Below, in pieces: positions 32,201-39,542 of a DNA stretch of 50,140 bases. This DNA comes from Synergistaceae bacterium. GTDB taxonomy: Bacteria > Synergistota > Synergistia > Synergistales > Aminobacteriaceae. Both the position numbers and the translations under genes were made by a program. Position 1 is the first letter of the stretch. The number at the start of each line of letters is the position of its first letter. Where the stretch lies: contig JAAYLU010000025.1 in assembly GCA_012521675.1 (NCBI GenBank), positions 1 through 50,140 on the forward strand. Reading direction: 5' to 3'. The notes under the pieces were generated by a model that was not told the DNA's origin, did not search any database, and worked only from the letters and a program-made list of their open reading frames with translations.

Positions 32201-32843
32201 GGCGTACGACATCGGCTTCGGCGGGCTCGACCACGTGCTCGCCTCCGGGGAGGACATCAACGTCCTCGTGCTGGACACGGAGGTCTACTCGAACACCGGA
32301 GGACAGTCGTCCAAGGCGACTCAGACAGCGGCAATCGCGAAGTTCGCCGCGTCCGGAAAGAAGGTCAAGAAGAAGGACCTTGGCCGCATTGCCATGACCT
32401 ACGGCTACGTCTACGTGGCGCAGGTCGGCATGGGCGCGGACAAGAACCAGCTCATGAGGGCGCTCAAGGAGGCCGAGGCATACAAGGGACCGTCCCTGGT
32501 CATCGCGTACGCCCCCTGCATCGCCCACGGTATCAGCGCCGGGATGGGCAAGACCCAGGATCAGACCAAGAAGGCGGTTGAGGCCGGCTACTGGCACCTG
32601 TACAGGTACAACCCCGAGCTGGCGGACGAGGGCAAGAACCCGTTCATCCTCGACTCGAAGGAGCCGAAGGCGGACTTCAAGGAGTACCTGATGAGCGAGG
32701 TTCGCTACGCCTCCCTGAAGAAGGAGTTCCCGGAGACGGCGGACGAGCTCTTCGATAAGGCCACAAGGGACGCGAAGGAACGGTACGAGATCTACAAGCA
32801 GCTCGCCGAGATGGGCAAGGAGCCCGTGAAGGCGGAGGCATAG
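29286..32843 (+). CDS. nifJ: Pyruvate:ferredoxin (flavodoxin) oxidoreductase, single-chain
   Basis: Oxidises pyruvate with CoA to acetyl-CoA, CO2 and reduced ferredoxin. The 1185-residue chain has all PFOR domains: an N-terminal pyruvate/TPP domain (AAIYPITPSSNMPE, about 26-37), the central transketolase-like and gamma parts, two 4Fe-4S clusters (CIQCNQCSMVCP, about 693-703; CLACGNCADICP, about 749-760), a proximal-cluster Cys pair (SGACAGCGETPY), and the TPP signature GDGWAYDIGFGGLDHV with NTGGQSSKAT. AYAPCIAHGI holds the last cluster Cys. Start at the ATG 29286 (AAGAGGGGG upstream). Codon use is strongly biased, suggesting high expression. Its acetyl-CoA would feed acetate kinase and fatty-acid synthesis. 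Confidence 0.97.
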   Translation: MKRNWKSMDGNTAAAHVSYAFTEVAAIYPITPSSNMPEVVDEWAARGRKNIFGKPVMVTELQSEAGAAGAVHGSLSAGSLSTTFTASQGLLLMMPNMYKISGELLPGVFDVTARAVAGHALSIFGDHSDVMACRGTGFAFLASGSVQEVMDLTAVAHLSAIKGSLPFVNFFDGFRTSHEIQKIDELQYEDLAKLVDYEALAKFRARAMNPERPFQKGTAQNPDIFFQAKEAANRFYTVIPDIVEHYMQEIKKLTGREYHPFKYYGDPEAESIIVAMGSVCQAIEETVDYLNARGERTGVIEVHLYRPFSEKFFFNVLPATVRRIAVLDRCKEPGALGEPLFEDVCALFKDMADGPLIVGGRYGLGSKDTTPTHIKSVFDNLKLYQPKDNFTISIVDDVTHTSLPVQEHIAAAPEGTIRCKFWGLGSDGTVGANKNSIMIIGDRTDMYAQGYFAYDSKKSGGITVSHLRFGDKPIKSTYLIDMADFIACHKQEYVNLYDVLSGLKKGGSFLLNTQWTTVEELEKHLPSKMRRALANDEIQFYVLNGTDIAEEIGLGNRINMIMQAAFFKLANVIPIDDAVKYMKEAIEDTYGRYGEKVVKMNFKAVDEGINALKKIDVPAEWANATTEPELLSGLSGEIPCFVKDVCMEINAQRGDSLPVSAFLGKEDGHFPSGTAAYEKRGVAVNVPEWKADKCIQCNQCSMVCPHAAIRPFLLNEQEVSAAPDGFGAVDVKGKEFPGYKYKMQVDVLDCLACGNCADICPTSALEMKPLASQEHEIPNWNYAIENISDKSGETNIFTVKGSQFSQPLMEFSGACAGCGETPYVKLVTQLFGDRMLVANATGCSSIWGGSAPNMPYTVNAKGHGPAWANSLFEDNAEYGYGMKLSINATMQYIEDAMKDLLALDIPEDMKAVFTEWLESKDNGEKSKVAAEKVMSVLDRDIGPEGNKLLCEIACRKDYLVKKSVWIFGGDGWAYDIGFGGLDHVLASGEDINVLVLDTEVYSNTGGQSSKATQTAAIAKFAASGKKVKKKDLGRIAMTYGYVYVAQVGMGADKNQLMRALKEAEAYKGPSLVIAYAPCIAHGISAGMGKTQDQTKKAVEAGYWHLYRYNPELADEGKNPFILDSKEPKADFKEYLMSEVRYASLKKEFPETADELFDKATRDAKERYEIYKQLAEMGKEPVKAEA

Positions 32844-32949: not shown

Positions 32950-33026
32950 CGGGACGTAGCGCAGTCTGGTAGCGTACCTGCATGGGGTGCAGGTGGTCGG
33001 AGGTTCGAATCCTCTCGTCCCGACCA
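32950..33026 (+). tRNA. tRNA-Pro (anticodon GGG)
   Basis: A complete 77-base cloverleaf with encoded CCA. The acceptor CGGGACG pairs with CGTCCCG. The anticodon arm CCTGC/GCAGG encloses ATGGGGT, placing GGG at 34-36. The T-arm is GGAGG/CCTCT-type with TTCGAAT. It begins with C, like other bacterial tRNA-Pro genes. Confidence 0.95.
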
Positions 33027-33075: not shown

Positions 33076-33882
33076 ATGAAGAACCCTTTCCAAGCCAAAA
33101 AGAGCCTCGGGCAGAACTTCCTCGTGGACAAGAACATACTGCGCCATATAGTGGACAGGGCGGCTATCTCCAAGGACGACGTCGTGCTGGAAGTCGGTGC
33201 CGGGCAGGGAGCGCTGACCCGGGCGCTGGCATCGTCCGGTTGCTCTTATCTTCACTCGGTGGAGATAGATCGAAGGCTGGCGCCCTTTCTTGAGGACATA
33301 CCCGCCGCTCATCCGGGGAGGGTCTCCATGATATGGGGGGACGCGCTCGCACTTGACTACTCGTCCCTATCCCCTCGTCCCTCGAAGGTCGTGGCAAACA
33401 TCCCGTACAACATCACCACCCCGCTGGTCTGGAGGTTCCTGGAGCAGCTTTCGCCCTTAGGGACCGACTACTTTCTGCTGATGGTCCAGAGGGAGGCGGC
33501 CGAGCGAATGGTCGCTCCGCCGCGTACCAAGGCGAGGTTCCCCCTCGGGATAACGCTGGAGCTGATGGGCGGCACGTCGATCATCAGGACCGTCTCCCCC
33601 AGGTCGTTCAGGCCGGTTCCGTCGGTCCTATCGGCGCTGATCGAGGTCGTCCTCACCGGCATTCATGCCGACCTTCCAAACGACCCTCTCTGGAGGTCGC
33701 TCCTGCGGGCGGGCTTCTCCCACAGGAGGAAAAAGCTGGCGAACAACCTGTCGGTTCTCCATCCGGCGAGGGACTGGGACAACCTGCTGGGTCAGGCGAA
33801 AATAGCCCCGAACGCCCGAGCCGAGGAGTTGACATGCGACCAGTGGATCGAGCTGTGGAGATTGGCCGCCGAGATCAAGTAA
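33076..33882 (+). CDS. rsmA: 16S rRNA adenine(1518/1519) dimethyltransferase
   Basis: Dimethylates two adenines near the 3-prime end of 16S rRNA. The 268-residue protein starts KNPFQAKKSLGQNFLVDKN. It has the SAM loop EVGAGQGALT and the catalytic NIPYNITTPL. FRPVPSVLSALIEV and HRRKKLANNL complete the C-terminal part. It is the only protein gene on this strand here, between the tRNA and convergent hup. Confidence 0.95.
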   Translation: MKNPFQAKKSLGQNFLVDKNILRHIVDRAAISKDDVVLEVGAGQGALTRALASSGCSYLHSVEIDRRLAPFLEDIPAAHPGRVSMIWGDALALDYSSLSPRPSKVVANIPYNITTPLVWRFLEQLSPLGTDYFLLMVQREAAERMVAPPRTKARFPLGITLELMGGTSIIRTVSPRSFRPVPSVLSALIEVVLTGIHADLPNDPLWRSLLRAGFSHRRKKLANNLSVLHPARDWDNLLGQAKIAPNARAEELTCDQWIELWRLAAEIK

Positions 33883-34345: not shown

Positions 34346-35662
34346 TCATTTTTCATCCCTGTTGCGCCAAAAAATGCGTATCGGCGAGCCGGAAAACTCA
34401 TTCAAGCCCCTTAATTCCTTCTCAATGTGGTTTTCAAACGACCTTGACACCAGGTTCGAGTCGTTCACGAAAAAGACGAAGGAGGGGGGGGTCGTCCCAG
34501 CCTGGGTGCAGTAGTATATCCTCAGCACCCTTCCCCTTCGGTCCACGGGAAGGGAGTCGAATGCGAGCACGTCCCTTACAAGGCGGTTCAGGGGCGTTGT
34601 GCCTATTCTTCTCCTCCTGTTCTCCGCCACTCGTACGATCGCATCCGGGAGCCTTTTCATCCCCCTGCCCGTCAAAGCGGAGACGAACAAGAGCGGCGCA
34701 TGCCGCAGGAAAACCATCTCGTCCTTGAATCGCTTCCTCATGGAATCGCCCAGCTTATTATCGCCTCCGAGGAGGTCCCACTTGTTCAGCACCAGCACTA
34801 TTCCCTTGCCCCGCTCGATCACGCGGGAGGCCAGTTTTTTATCCTGGTCGGTGAAGGGCTCGTTCGCGTCCATGACGAGGATGGCCACGTCGCTCCTGTC
34901 CACCGCCTGAAGGGCCCTGACGAAGGAGTAGTATTCTATGTCCCCGTCCATCCTGCTTTTTCTCCTCATCCCGGCGGTGTCGATGAAATTGAAGGTGATG
35001 CCATCGATCTCGACCATCGTGTCCAATGCATCGCGGGTGGTGCCCGGTATGTCGCTGACGAGCGCCCTCTCCTCCTTCGCCAGGTAGTTTACCAGGCTTG
35101 ACTTCCCGACGTTGGGGCGACCGACAATGGCGACCCCTATCGCATCCTCGTCCGCGGGCGGCTCCTCGATGTCGGAGAGTTTGGAGACGATGAGATCTCT
35201 CAGGTCGTATATGTAGCGCTTATGCTCCGCGCTTACACCTATGACCTCACCAAACCCCAGGGAATAAGCCTGGAAGACCAGGTCCTCGTGGATCCCGTCA
35301 TCGATTTTATTGGCCACTACGATCACGGGCTTCCCGGAGCGACGAAGCATGTCGGCGACATCCTCGTCCATCCACGTCGGCCCTTCCTTGCCGTCGATCA
35401 CGAAGAGCACGAGGTCGCTCTCGCTTATTGCGACCTTGATCTGTCTTCTCATACCCTGCACAAATTCGTTTTCGTCCCTGGCCAAAAAGCCGCCCGTGTC
35501 CACGACGAAGAACTTTTTGTCCCGCCATTCGGCCTCGCCGTACAGCCTGTCCCTCGTCACTCCCGGCATATCGTCGACAATGGCCTCTCGCCGCCCCAGA
35601 AGACGGTTGAAGAGCGACGATTTTCCCACGTTCGGCCTTCCCACTATAGAAACAACAGGCAT
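34346..35662 (-). CDS. der: Ribosome-assembly GTPase Der (EngA)
   Basis: A tandem GTPase required for 50S assembly. The 438-residue protein has two G domains: GRPNVGKSSLFNRL with NKID near the start, and GRPNVGKSSLVNYL with DTAGMRR and NKWDLL in the second. A KH-like C-terminus follows (RRGRVLRIYYCTQAGTTPPSF, NDSNLVSRSFENHIEKELR). Order and length are standard. It follows priA by 22 bases. Confidence 0.96.
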   Translation of the reverse strand: MPVVSIVGRPNVGKSSLFNRLLGRREAIVDDMPGVTRDRLYGEAEWRDKKFFVVDTGGFLARDENEFVQGMRRQIKVAISESDLVLFVIDGKEGPTWMDEDVADMLRRSGKPVIVVANKIDDGIHEDLVFQAYSLGFGEVIGVSAEHKRYIYDLRDLIVSKLSDIEEPPADEDAIGVAIVGRPNVGKSSLVNYLAKEERALVSDIPGTTRDALDTMVEIDGITFNFIDTAGMRRKSRMDGDIEYYSFVRALQAVDRSDVAILVMDANEPFTDQDKKLASRVIERGKGIVLVLNKWDLLGGDNKLGDSMRKRFKDEMVFLRHAPLLFVSALTGRGMKRLPDAIVRVAENRRRRIGTTPLNRLVRDVLAFDSLPVDRRGRVLRIYYCTQAGTTPPSFVFFVNDSNLVSRSFENHIEKELRGLNEFSGSPIRIFWRNRDEK

Positions 35663-35684: not shown

Positions 35685-37493
35685 TCAATCTGTCCAGACG
35701 ATTATCTCCGGGAAGCCTCCCCTGGAGCGTCTTATCGAAAAAAAAGGCTCTAGAGCCCTGCGAACCGCCGAGACGGAGGACGACGCAACCCATAGGACGA
35801 GCGGCGGGTCGCCGGGGTCCATCGGGGCCAGCCCGGCCTCCCCCATGCTGGCAAGCAGCTCGGATTTCTGAGATTCGCCCCTCGCCCTTATCTCCACCAG
35901 GCATGAGAAGGGCGGCAGTCCGAGTTCCCGCCGTTCGGAGAGCTCCTGCCTCCAGAATACGTCCCATCCAAGCGCTATTCCTCTCTGCCAGCCGACACCC
36001 GGCCTCCTGCTCTGGAGAAGCACCGTCCTCTCCCCTGCACCCCTGCCCCTCCATATCGACTCCCATACCATGGAGAATGCGGTGAACCTGGCCTGGTACG
36101 CCGTGCTCCTGGCCTCCGCGTCGACGTCCAGCCAGGCGACGAAGCCGATCTCCAACAGGTCGCACAAGGAGAGGGCCGCCCGTGTGCCGAGCGCTATCCC
36201 GCCGGAAGAGAGGAGGTCGGAGATCTCCTTCAGTTTCCTCTTTCCCGCCGACTTCAGCTCGTCCAGCAATAGCGCCGGCTGTTTCCGGTTCGCCAAGCTC
36301 TTTGCCACCGAGTGGACGGCCTCAAGCCCCGGACGCTTGCCGCAGAGCAGGCGTCCTCTGCACTCCGGGCACTCTTCCGGCATCGGGGCGAGCGAACCGC
36401 ACGAAGGGCAACGAGTGCGATCGCGCTGCTCCTCCCGGACTACCGAGGCACCGCACTCCCCGCAGCGCACCGATCCGCCGCACTCCTCGCACGCTATCTC
36501 CCCCGCGAAGCCCTTTCTGTCTAGAAGCCAGAGGGCGACCCTTCCCGAGGCAAGGCACGATTCCGTTCCAGTGAGGAGCGCGCTCGTGAGCGGCAGGGTG
36601 TCGCTTAAACCTCGAATTGAGGCGTCGAAGGCTTCTTTTACGTCGACGAATCGAAGCCTGCTTCTGTCGGGCCTATCTGTCGACCTGGGTTTTCCATGCA
36701 GAAAGGCCCTAGACGACGGCACTCTACCGGAGAGAAGCAGGTTCGCCGACTCGAGCCTGGCCCTCTTGCCCGCGAGGGTCCTGACGTTTACCCTCGGCCT
36801 CGCGTAGGAGCGGTAAGAACCGCTACTCTCCTCGTCGACGATTATCGCGTCCACCCTCCCAAGAGGGGCGAACAGGGCACCGGGGCCGCCGACGACGCCG
36901 CGCACCTCGCCGTTTCGCGCTGCCATCCACGCTGCTAACTGCCTCTTGCCGCCCTGTGACGGCCAAAGAAGAGCCACCTCTCTTACCTCGCCCGGAAGGT
37001 TGTCCCAGAACTCCCTCGCCAGTCCCTGCTCCGGAAAGAGGATGATAAAATTACCGCTGCGCTTGATCAGCTCGACATACCTGAGCCATCTATCCTCCCG
37101 ACGGCAAGAGTATTGAAAGGTCTCCCCGCCTTCGGCTTTTCTATCGCAAGGGGATGGCGGCGCAAGGTTCAGCTTCTCGGCCGAGGCGAACAGAACGGAC
37201 GGTGCGCCGATTCGTATGAGCTCGCCTGCTCCGCACAGAAAGGCCCCGCCTCCCCATTCAAACAGCTCCGCAAGGCCCTCCGGGAAGAGCGGAGCTTCGT
37301 CCAGCACGGCCCTTACAGACTTGAGGGCGAAGGTATCGTCCCTGTTGAGACTCCCGGCGCCCCTGATGATCCCGATACGCTCTCCTCGCCCCAAGGGGAC
37401 AACCACCCTCGACCCGATCTCCACGGGAGAGTTCGCTTCGTAAGTCAGGCCATGCCACCAGGGTCCGGGGACTGTCACCTCATAATAGGGCAT
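35685..37493 (-). CDS. priA: PriA-like primosomal protein N-prime, ATPase motifs degenerate
   Basis: PriA restarts stalled forks. The 602-residue protein (usual 700-800) keeps the N-terminal DNA-binding part (VTVPGPWWHGLTYE, VGSRVVVPLG-like) and the central zinc modules, with eight Cys in four C-X2-C pairs (335/338, 344/347, 362/365, 375/378). The Walker A GVTGSGKTE that should sit near residue 145 is absent, replaced by RSGNFIILFPEQGL. DEEH of motif II reads DEES (220-223). The motif V GTQ.IAKGHDF region is shortened to GTRAALSLCDLLEIG, and the GRAGR motif VI is altered. Hydrolysis is thus doubtful; Actinobacteria have a similarly inactive PriA. It lies between coaBC and der. Confidence 0.88.
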   Translation of the reverse strand: MPYYEVTVPGPWWHGLTYEANSPVEIGSRVVVPLGRGERIGIIRGAGSLNRDDTFALKSVRAVLDEAPLFPEGLAELFEWGGGAFLCGAGELIRIGAPSVLFASAEKLNLAPPSPCDRKAEGGETFQYSCRREDRWLRYVELIKRSGNFIILFPEQGLAREFWDNLPGEVREVALLWPSQGGKRQLAAWMAARNGEVRGVVGGPGALFAPLGRVDAIIVDEESSGSYRSYARPRVNVRTLAGKRARLESANLLLSGRVPSSRAFLHGKPRSTDRPDRSRLRFVDVKEAFDASIRGLSDTLPLTSALLTGTESCLASGRVALWLLDRKGFAGEIACEECGGSVRCGECGASVVREEQRDRTRCPSCGSLAPMPEECPECRGRLLCGKRPGLEAVHSVAKSLANRKQPALLLDELKSAGKRKLKEISDLLSSGGIALGTRAALSLCDLLEIGFVAWLDVDAEARSTAYQARFTAFSMVWESIWRGRGAGERTVLLQSRRPGVGWQRGIALGWDVFWRQELSERRELGLPPFSCLVEIRARGESQKSELLASMGEAGLAPMDPGDPPLVLWVASSSVSAVRRALEPFFSIRRSRGGFPEIIVWTD

Positions 37494-37502
37494 GAAGGGC
37501 CT

Positions 37503-38708
37503 TCAGCCGAGAGTTATCGTGTTCCAAATCTCCTCCGCGACGTCCTCCTTTGACCCGGTGAAGACAGAGGAGGCACCGTCCGCCCCGAGTATGCGCACGG
37601 TGTTCGTGTCTACCCCGAAGCCGGACCGGGGATCGGTTATGTCGTTGGCGACGATGTAATCCAGTTTCTTCCTCCCCATCTTACCGACGGCATTCTGGAC
37701 GATGTCGTGGCTCTCTGCGGCGAAGCCGACCAGCACCTGTCCCGGTCTCTTCGTGGCTCCGAGGGCAGCGGCTATGTCCGTGTTCTGGACGAGGTCGATG
37801 GTCGTCGTCTCACGGTCGCCCCTCTTGATCTTCTCGTCCGCGAACGAGGCGGGACGAAAATCCCCTACGGCGGCGGCCTTGACTATGTAGTCCGCGTCTC
37901 CGGATCGGGTCATGACCACCTCCCTCATCTCCTCGGCCGAGACGACCTTTACGACGTCAAGGCCGGCCAGGTTCGTCAACGAGGACGGACCCAACACGAG
38001 GGTCACCTCGGCGCCCCTGTACCACGCCGCCCTGGCGACCGCCAGTCCCATCTTCCCGGAGCTGGGGTTGCCGATGAAGCGCACGGGATCGAGGTACTCG
38101 TGGGTCGGCCCGGCTGTTACGAGGACCCGCTTTCCAGCGAGATCGTCATGCGGACAGAGAATCCGCCAGGTCTCCTCCATTATCACTTCCGTGGCGGGCA
38201 GGCGACCCTTGCCCTCGTACCCGCAGGCCAGCGGGCCGGCGTCCGGGTCCAGAATGAAGAGGCCTCTCTCCTTCAGGGTCTCGATGTTGGTCGACGTGGC
38301 GGCGTTGGCGAGCATGTCCACGTTCATCGCCGGGCAGAGCAGTACCGGGGCGCGCGTCGCAAGGATCAGCGAGCCTAGCAGCTCCTTTCCCCTGCCCTGG
38401 GCGGTGTTGGCAAGAGTCTCGGCGGTACAGGGGGCGACGACCACTATCTCGGCCCAATCAGCAAGCGAGATGTGGGGTATCCTCCAGCCGTGGTCGTCGG
38501 ACAGAAAATCCCTTCCGCACCAGGCGCGCCTGCCGGCGAGGGTCGAAAGGGTCAGAGGGCTGACGAACCTCTCTCCTCCCTCGGTGAGAACGACCTCGAC
38601 CTCGCACTCCGCCTTCGTCAGAGCCCTGACGATCTCGGGCGCCTTGTAGGCGGAGATGCCTCCGGCAATACCGAGGACCGCCCGTCTATTCCTCTTCCAC
38701 CCGGGCAT
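37503..38708 (-). CDS. coaBC: Bifunctional phosphopantothenoylcysteine decarboxylase/synthetase
   Basis: Second and third steps of CoA synthesis from pantothenate. The 401-residue protein has a CoaC flavin domain (LGIAGGISAYKAPEIVRAL, HISLADWAEIVVVAPCTAET, PAMNVDM) and a CoaB domain (VLVTAGPTHEYLDPVRFIGNPSSGKMG, AAVGDFRP, LVGFAAESHD, NDI). Order and length are standard. It overlaps rpoZ by 23 bases. Confidence 0.95.
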   Translation of the reverse strand: MPGWKRNRRAVLGIAGGISAYKAPEIVRALTKAECEVEVVLTEGGERFVSPLTLSTLAGRRAWCGRDFLSDDHGWRIPHISLADWAEIVVVAPCTAETLANTAQGRGKELLGSLILATRAPVLLCPAMNVDMLANAATSTNIETLKERGLFILDPDAGPLACGYEGKGRLPATEVIMEETWRILCPHDDLAGKRVLVTAGPTHEYLDPVRFIGNPSSGKMGLAVARAAWYRGAEVTLVLGPSSLTNLAGLDVVKVVSAEEMREVVMTRSGDADYIVKAAAVGDFRPASFADEKIKRGDRETTTIDLVQNTDIAAALGATKRPGQVLVGFAAESHDIVQNAVGKMGRKKLDYIVANDITDPRSGFGVDTNTVRILGADGASSVFTGSKEDVAEEIWNTITLG

Positions 38709-38928
38709 CTTCCTCGGCCTCGAGCTTTTCTTCCTCAGCCGGACAGTTCGGCCTTCCCTGGTAGAACTCCTCCAAGGCTGTGGAGATGAACTTTTCGTTC
38801 TCCTCCTCGAGAGTCCGCCCCTTCTGCTCGCTTAAAGCCCGCGCCCTGGCCGCCACAGCCACGGTCAGGACGTATTTATTGTCTATCCCCTGCTTTTCTC
38901 CAAGGGAATCCAAGTCGTACAGCTTCAT
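38686..38928 (-). CDS. rpoZ: RNA polymerase omega subunit
   Basis: An 80-residue protein whose DNKYVLTVAVAARARALSEQ helix is the omega signature and binds beta-prime. A glutamate-rich tail follows. It lies between gmk (4-base overlap) and coaBC (23-base overlap), a widely conserved order. Confidence 0.9.
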   Translation of the reverse strand: MKLYDLDSLGEKQGIDNKYVLTVAVAARARALSEQKGRTLEEENEKFISTALEEFYQGRPNCPAEEEKLEAEEDARVEEE

Positions 38929-39542
38929 GATCCCACTCCTCCTTGTTGCTTTTCGTCATTCCCGTACGTAGAAATAATGCCCTTTAGCTCCCTTGCCGCC
39001 CTTTCGACGCAGTCATTGACGATGACGTAGTCGTAGAGAGGAAGCTGTTCCATCTCCCGTCTCGCATTGCAGAGGCGCAGCTTGAGAAGATCCTCGGTCT
39101 CGGTTCCCCTGTCGCGGAGCCTCTTCTCCAGCTCCTCGAAGGACGGGGGTGTCACAAACAGGAGCACACTCTCCGGCATGCTCTCCCTGACCTGCAACGC
39201 CCCCTGCACATCTATTTCGAGCAGGATATCCTCTCCCGACTCAAGCACTCGGTTCACGTCCTCCCTCAGGGTTCCATAGTACTCTCCGTGGACGACCGCA
39301 TGCTCCAGAAAGTCCCCTATCCTCAGCCTGTCAAGGAAGTCCTCCTTCGAGATGAACCGGTAGTCAACTCCTTCTCTCTCGCCCTCTCTCGGCGGCCTGG
39401 TGGTACAAGAGACCGAGAAGGTTATCCCCTCGGCCCCCTCGAACATGATTTTCCTCAGGGTGCCCTTGCCGGCGCCGCTCGGCCCCGAGAGCACGAAGAG
39501 CCTACCCCTCTGTTTTCCTGACATCTTCGCTTTCGCCTTCAT
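38925..39542 (-). CDS. gmk: Guanylate kinase
   Basis: Phosphorylates GMP. The P-loop [14 protein letters not shown] is followed by [31 protein letters not shown] and DVQGA, all typical. Its frame begins at 39542 and overlaps remA by 41 bases; an ATG at 39524 nearer the P-loop could also be the start. The gmk-rpoZ-coaBC order supports the call. Confidence 0.95.

Follow-up and report, generated by a model that had tools for sequence, protein, structure and literature searches.

Can a PriA protein that has lost its ATP site still take part in replication restart, and what would it do there? The question is raised by a gene on a stretch of 50,140 nucleotides from a Synergistaceae bacterium (GenBank assembly GCA_012521675.1, contig JAAYLU010000025.1), hereafter the window. 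An original prediction, made from the letters alone, described the gene product as a PriA-like protein without Walker A and with altered helicase motifs, and held that if it were the only PriA of the organism then restart must use another helicase. We analyzed the locus, its relatives throughout the Synergistota and PriA proteins from other bacteria.

A single PriA in a conserved neighborhood

The gene and its neighbors, all on the reverse strand, are:

35685..37493 (-), PriA pseudohelicase, 602 amino acids, ATG start (open reading frame, profile matches and AF2 model)
37503..38708 (-), coaBC, directly upstream of priA (TIGR00521, 400.3 bits)
38686..38928 (-), rpoZ-like open reading frame of 80 amino acids between gmk and coaBC (named from its position)
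38925..39542 (-), gmk (TIGR03263, 225.3 bits)
34346..35662 (-), der, directly downstream of priA (TIGR03594, 514.4 bits)

The window protein is PriA by descent. Its best match among NCBIfam models is PRK05580, at 177.4 bits (cut-off 763), against 63.5 bits for the PRK14873 models; TIGR00595 (priA) is matched at about 147.5 bits (cut-off 230.35) from profile position 23 onwards, and no PriA equivalog cut-off in NCBIfam is reached. The five top PDB sequence matches are all PriA entries (E 4.8e-40 to 1.2e-39). A profile search of the genome, which is 97.6% complete, found this one PriA: the three other TIGR00595 matches are Mfd, UvrB and RecG, and the second full-length priA that would have refuted the original prediction was not found.

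The upstream side of the locus resembles that of Firmicutes records, where priA follows coaBC (and is itself followed by fmt or def) or lies in the order gmk-rpoZ-priA-def-fmt. The latter order is annotated in a Pusillibacter record, with which we compared the position of the rpoZ-like open reading frame; this 80-residue product has no NCBIfam match at E 1e-10. Within the Synergistota, 39 named loci of at least 9 kb have a CoaBC match, and in 36 of them coaBC is adjacent to and codirectional with priA; among the 33 named loci of at least 11 kb coaBC and gmk are present in all and der in 29. A single open frame of about 600 codons is kept throughout the phylum. For six close relatives dN/dS lies between 0.097 and 0.240 in eight of 15 pairs, the other seven being saturated; the sole pair with dS below 1 gives 0.139. 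Together these dN/dS values and the conserved synteny argue against a pseudogene.

A single tRNA gene was found in the window, a tRNA-Pro (GGG) at 32950-33026 (+), flanked by an open reading frame of 1202 amino acids ending at 32843 and one of 268 amino acids at 33076-33882.

Loss of the ATP site

Alignment to E. coli PriA places the helicase motifs, or what is left of them, as follows.

37077..37118 (-), remnant of motif I (Walker A), residues 126-139, with Arg135 at the position of E. coli Lys230
36825..36836 (-), motif II remnant DEES, residues 220-223, with Glu222 invariant
36711..36728 (-), motif III remnant GRVPSS
36171..36188 (-), motif V region, GTRAAL
36024..36074 (-), altered motif VI region, residues 474-490 (SMVWESIWRGRG...)

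Where E. coli has the Walker A sequence GVTGSGKTE the window PriA has SCRREDRWL, aligned without large gaps; DEEH has become DEES; and motif III is lost, GSATPA being replaced, again without large gaps, by SGRVPS. The absence of Walker A and the change to DEES, both claimed in the original prediction, are thus borne out. Motifs V and VI, which it called eroded, are both altered, the former from GTQM to GTRA and the latter from G583-R-A-G-R587 to W-R-gap-G-R; with three of its five letters kept, motif VI is nevertheless not wholly gone. In sum, none of the Walker A GxTGSGKT, the DEEH, the SAT and the motif VI AGRAGR of an active helicase is intact in the window PriA, which instead shares with pseudohelicases of the Deinococcus kind the loss of the Walker lysine and retention of the DNA-binding domain. 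As read from the alignment, the ATP site is lost.

A PriA fold without the winged helix

The rest of the chain is arranged as in other PriAs, with one exception.

37206..37481 (-), 3' DNA-binding domain (3'BD), residues 5-96 (PF17764, E 1.9e-14, 53.7 bits)
37131..37205 (-), short linker, residues 97-121, in place of the winged-helix domain of other PriAs (alignment spacing)
36360..36491 (-), cysteine-rich zinc region (CRR) with eight cysteines, residues 335-378 (alignment)
35688..35915 (-), C-terminal domain, from LPPF (527) to residue 602 (E. coli alignment; model alignment to residue 730 of 6dcr)

Across 42 aligned sequences, the window PriA counted, PF17764 is matched by every one and the CRR cysteines (335, 338, 344, 347, 362, 365, 375 and 378) are invariant, in agreement with the conservation originally noted for both regions. 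In all, 48 positions are invariant across the 42, among them the eight cysteines, Arg135 and Glu222. The residue corresponding to E. coli Phe16 in the 3'BD is Leu in 14 of 16 sequences; Leu also occurs there in 17 of 95 intact PriAs.

The AF2 model built with the 42 sequences has a mean pLDDT of 87.2 and a pTM of 0.84, and the helicase-lobe folds are kept in it. Foldseek returned PriA at ranks 1-9. The structure modeling that had been proposed as a check gave as its top VIA match 6dcr, a winged-helix deletion of E. coli PriA (Z 30.1 over 480 aligned residues, rmsd 3.4), ahead of four further PriA entries at VIA Z 24.6-25.4 and then Mfd at 14.3. The fold agrees end to end with PriA structures, fork-bound ones among them. 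The window protein thus carries the 3' DNA-binding domain, the eight-cysteine zinc region and the fold and domain order that define a PriA.

With 130 residues fewer than E. coli PriA (732 residues), within the predicted shortfall of 100-150, and about 200 fewer than the Listeria and Bacillus proteins (797 and 803), the window PriA owes its short length mainly to the lack of the winged helix and its linkers. Between the 3'BD anchor and motif I it has 29 residues, as against a median of 176 (range 39-254) in 95 PriAs scored as intact; the 16 Synergistota sequences measured have 24-34. In E. coli the winged helix touches the parental duplex (PMC10175261); fork recognition should accordingly be weaker or different without it. 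Among the 95, whose Walker A is intact, twelve likewise have linkers of fewer than 70 residues (L146, L154, L165, L207, L208, L209, L213, L217, L220, L228, L235 and L237): the winged helix is therefore no requirement for an intact motor, and is apparently dispensable while the motor stays.

The motorless state throughout the Synergistota

A PriA match at E <= 1e-20 was obtained in 167 of 185 Synergistota genomes (111 of the 115 of good quality). At the level of the order, none of 180 genomes reaches the PriA cut-off: 162 are matched at E <= 1e-20, with a best score of 185 bits, and 18 have no match at that E-value. The five Synergistota genomes outside the order score 227-351 bits, four being counted above the cut-off, and their matches begin at profile position 12-14; the Walker A loop is absent there too. 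The named loci closest to the window, at up to 60% identity, carry the titles Synergistales or Synergistaceae, and the titles among 56 named loci include Acetomicrobium, Thermovirga and Dethiosulfovibrio, together with one Candidatus Caccocola. One genome listed as 9% contaminated, G109, holds two PriA matches (contigs C24 and C25).

For the alignment of Synergistota proteins over the Walker A region, as the original prediction proposed, 55 sequences from the genome searches were combined with 41 from named loci; of these 96 rows, drawn from the 167 matched genomes and the named loci, 82 are distinct when compared on their last 480 residues. The loop is missing from all 82, and the pattern GxxxxGK[ST] occurs nowhere in the chain of any of them, so that the search for an intact, divergent ATP site elsewhere left the prediction standing. 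The Lys230 column holds Arg in 81, the remaining row, at a contig edge, having a gap; at the third acidic position of motif II (Glu222) all 82 have Glu. The motif II His is not listed for 80 of the sequences nor the motif III Thr for 81, and eight, including the window PriA, retain the second motif VI Arg. The same motorless state is found in the single-contig genomes G008, G009, G019 and G029. Four features conserved in the Synergistota are absent from E. coli PriA: PGPWW, LWPSxGG, WESxWRG and QSRxPGxGWQ.

Walker-less PriAs in other bacteria

The search was widened to 109 genomes outside the Synergistota, each of a different family, 97 of which gave a PriA match at E <= 1e-50. Rows with SGKT, ASGKT or TGKT and otherwise intact motifs were counted as intact. 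By eye, on the aligned motifs, Walker A is clearly lost in eight of the 97 (L196, L197, L198, L199, L201, L202, L203 and L204); three more are borderline (L211, L219 and L234) and L262 ends at a contig edge. Among the 12 remaining genomes, the PriA of G293, a presumed actinobacterium since it bears WhiB, is Walker-less (L167), and the other 11 hold fragments, doubtful open reading frames or, by size and range, matches like Mfd, RecG or UvrB.

L167 scores 770 bits with PRK14873, which we take to be the actinobacterial type of PriA, represented here by G293. The nine other dead PriAs scanned, including L035 of the Synergistota, score higher with PRK05580 than with PRK14873. The actinobacterial parallel drawn in the original prediction therefore stands as far as the missing Walker A is concerned; by profile score, L167 belongs to a separate subfamily.

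PriA-like proteins are also encoded on plasmid records (H31-H33 and H70-H80), for example those of 39-48 kb from Bacteroides and Phocaeicola and of 161-204 kb from Pseudomonas aeruginosa.

Candidate restart partners

Restart partners were sought in 30 Synergistota genomes. Of the families first proposed, DnaD/DnaB_2 is matched in none of the 30, and PriC in none above its cut-off. A single PriC match at E 9.7e-4, in a 723-residue open reading frame of one genome, falls below the cut-off and was taken as chance. DciA, which the original prediction did not name, is matched at E <= 0.001 in 26 of the 30 genomes, the window genome counted, and lies above its cut-off in 25; two of the four genomes in which it is missed are at least 94% complete. 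The DciA of the window genome scores 33.5 bits, above the cut-off, and is located (contig C77) about 5 kb from a 442-residue open reading frame that is a putative dnaA, a name we infer. Controls whose PriA match is strong (Caulobacter, Synechococcus, Bacteroides and Thermotoga) likewise contain DciA, which by itself therefore provides no explanation for loss of the motor.

PF01695 (DnaC/DnaI) matches all 30 genomes and is not discriminating. In G011, G015, G016 and G017 its single match is an open reading frame of 443-490 residues, a putative DnaA, and no separate DnaC/DnaI-like gene was seen with this profile. RecG scores 696.8 bits in the window genome and is above its cut-off in 25 of the 30.

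Comparison with known PriA proteins

E. coli PriA, a live helicase working with PriB, PriC, DnaT and DnaC, has the same fold and domain order as the Synergistota protein; the Synergistota genomes searched gave no DnaD or PriC family, and most have DciA. The Synergistota PriA resembles two laboratory changes to the E. coli protein combined, deletion of the winged helix (6dcr) and K230R, the latter being the change carried by priA300.

The closest functional precedent is that of Deinococcus radiodurans, described in PMC4504706: ATP hydrolysis by its PriA is below measure, and at 10 nM it unwinds 4% of forks as against 56% for E. coli PriA. It binds fork DNA at 108.5 nM, differing by no more than about twofold from E. 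coli PriA in its binding of single-stranded and fork DNA, and native gels show it in complex with DnaB; the genome has no clear priB or dnaT. In the same paper, sequence logos of 100 PriAs from 18 phyla show well-conserved helicase motifs, with Deinococcus-Thermus as notable exceptions; actinobacteria and Synergistota are not mentioned in its main text. Deinococcus and Synergistota PriAs have in common the lack of working helicase motifs, the change of the Walker Lys to Arg and a retained DNA-binding part. The description of Deinococcus-Thermus, however, is of motifs I and II that match poorly and of a Lys to Arg change within GKT (PMC4504706), whereas in the Synergistota nothing of the Walker loop is left and motif III has gone. 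The Synergistota protein also lacks the winged helix. Of the two, the Deinococcus protein is the one tested at the bench; that of the Synergistota is known from sequence and model.

Actinobacterial PriA has been called smaller and very divergent (PMC1193525). In the one such genome examined here, L167 resembles the Synergistota proteins in lacking both Walker A and DEEH, and differs from the window PriA in its linker (62 residues as against 29) as well as in subfamily. On these comparisons, what seems to be added to a known kind is the phylum-wide occurrence, the missing winged helix and the fixed arginine. No account of Synergistota PriA was found in the literature collection searched, outside which most subscription papers lie.

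Alternative explanations

The low scores against PriA models could be taken as signs of a decaying gene or an assembly artefact; this is refuted by the phylum-wide retention of an open frame of about 600 codons, by dN/dS values of 0.097-0.240 and by the recurrence of the same state in four single-contig genomes, and its likelihood is negligible. It is very improbable that PriA is still a motor, driven by a nucleotide site of unconventional type in another part of the chain. The invariant Glu222 and nearly invariant Arg135 suggest that the old site is under some constraint, and the R, G and R of motif VI survive in the window PriA; but a P-loop pattern is lacking in 82 of 82 sequences, loss of the loop glycines goes together with that of the motif III Ser-Ala-Thr, only eight of the 82 keep the second motif VI Arg, and in E. 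coli PriA the K-to-R change alone abolishes the ATPase (PMC4504706). We also think it quite unlikely that the scaffold was taken over for another job, with restart proceeding via DnaA, DciA or RecG. The four Synergistota-specific motifs do suggest new contacts, and the Phe16 to Leu change points weakly the same way, weakly because intact PriAs share it; yet the 3'BD and the CRR cysteines are conserved in 42 of 42 sequences, the fold matches PriA structures end to end, the fork-bound ones included, and coaBC lies upstream as in Firmicutes.

A further explanation concerns history: Walker-less PriAs might represent one ancient dead PriA spread between phyla by transfer, and not repeated losses. 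A PriA tree was built from about a third of the long-linker intact rows, all short-linker intact rows and eight named references, together with the dead ones, omitting L262 (cut off), L166 and L169 (doubtful) and L219 (borderline). On the quick version the dead state needs five changes, but an AU test does not reject a single dead-PriA clade (p 0.87), the log-likelihood of which is 48 higher than that of the free quick tree; moreover, L197, L198, L199 and L201 share the Arg in the Lys230 column. Against one origin, the RpoB tree scatters dead-PriA genomes among live ones and needs seven changes, or at least five without the borderline G278 and G222, on a backbone largely lacking resolution; the actinobacterial protein fits PRK14873 where the nine others scanned fit PRK05580 better; and long branches attract. 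We regard a single origin with transfer as rather unlikely.

Two observations on these trees deserve mention. The Walker-less L201 (G269), L204 (G256) and L167 (G293) join in the PriA tree (SH-aLRT 98), and RpoB places G269 and G256 with live-PriA genomes, so that either transfer or long-branch attraction may apply to their PriAs. In RpoB (L273-L302, from 30 genomes), 15 genomes show a break in the profile match near positions 892-986; all five Synergistota are among them, as are eight of the 11 genomes labelled dead-PriA.

A probable platform for restart

The explanation that we favor, and consider likely, is that the Synergistota protein is an orthologous PriA turned pseudohelicase, which recognizes forks and offers an ATP-independent platform for the reloading of DnaB, likely with DciA. 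It would bind abandoned forks through the 3'BD, the dead helicase lobes, the zinc region and the C-terminal domain, and is probably a passive landing platform rather than a helicase. DciA being the only loader family to be found in most of the 30 genomes searched, a direct hand-off between PriA and DnaB/DciA would be the likeliest route. With no ATPase, PriA would not unwind lagging-strand duplex or D-loops; forks would need to be open on arrival, or be reshaped by RecG or another helicase. For the Synergistota we infer all of the biochemistry, as we do the DciA hand-off and the division of labor with RecG.

That such a protein could work as a restart factor is supported from three sides: the binding data from Deinococcus, ATPase-dead restart in E. 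coli and evidence that the motor can do harm. E. coli PriA with an ATPase-dead mutation assembles primosomes and the cells are viable (PMC4504706); the K230A protein has been used for DnaB loading in vitro, and PriA-PriB restart in vivo is independent of the PriA ATPase (PMC10175261). In recG ruvAB cells, priA300 prevents loss of DNA at breaks (PMC4752480). The conclusion that restart must use another helicase is not supported, in view of this E. coli evidence (PMC4504706, PMC10175261) and that from Deinococcus (PMC4504706): since restart in E. coli needs no PriA ATPase, the requirement does not follow. At restart, the helicase of consequence is DnaB once it has been loaded.

A broader proposal is tentative, and we give it somewhat less than an even chance. 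The PriA motor may be dispensable across whole phyla and have been discarded repeatedly, the last common ancestor of the Synergistota being already without motor or winged helix. The fixed Arg would pair with the invariant Glu of motif II, locking the lobes into a static fork clamp from which DnaB is handed over with DciA, duplex clearing having passed to RecG.

PriA is usually described as a helicase; no sequence in the set from this phylum keeps the motor. The kind was already known, biochemically from Deinococcus and as divergent proteins in Actinobacteria; that it should take in a whole phylum, with further cases scattered elsewhere, was not expected. The apparent additions are the Synergistota case, the loss of the winged helix, the fixed K-to-R change and the clear loss of Walker A in eight of 97 outside genomes. 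The name 'replication restart helicase PriA' is misleading for these genes, and pathway or drug models based on PriA helicase activity need not apply to these bacteria. Together with the scattered cases, the Synergistota make the purpose of the PriA ATPase testable, by comparison of lineages that keep the motor with relatives that do without it.
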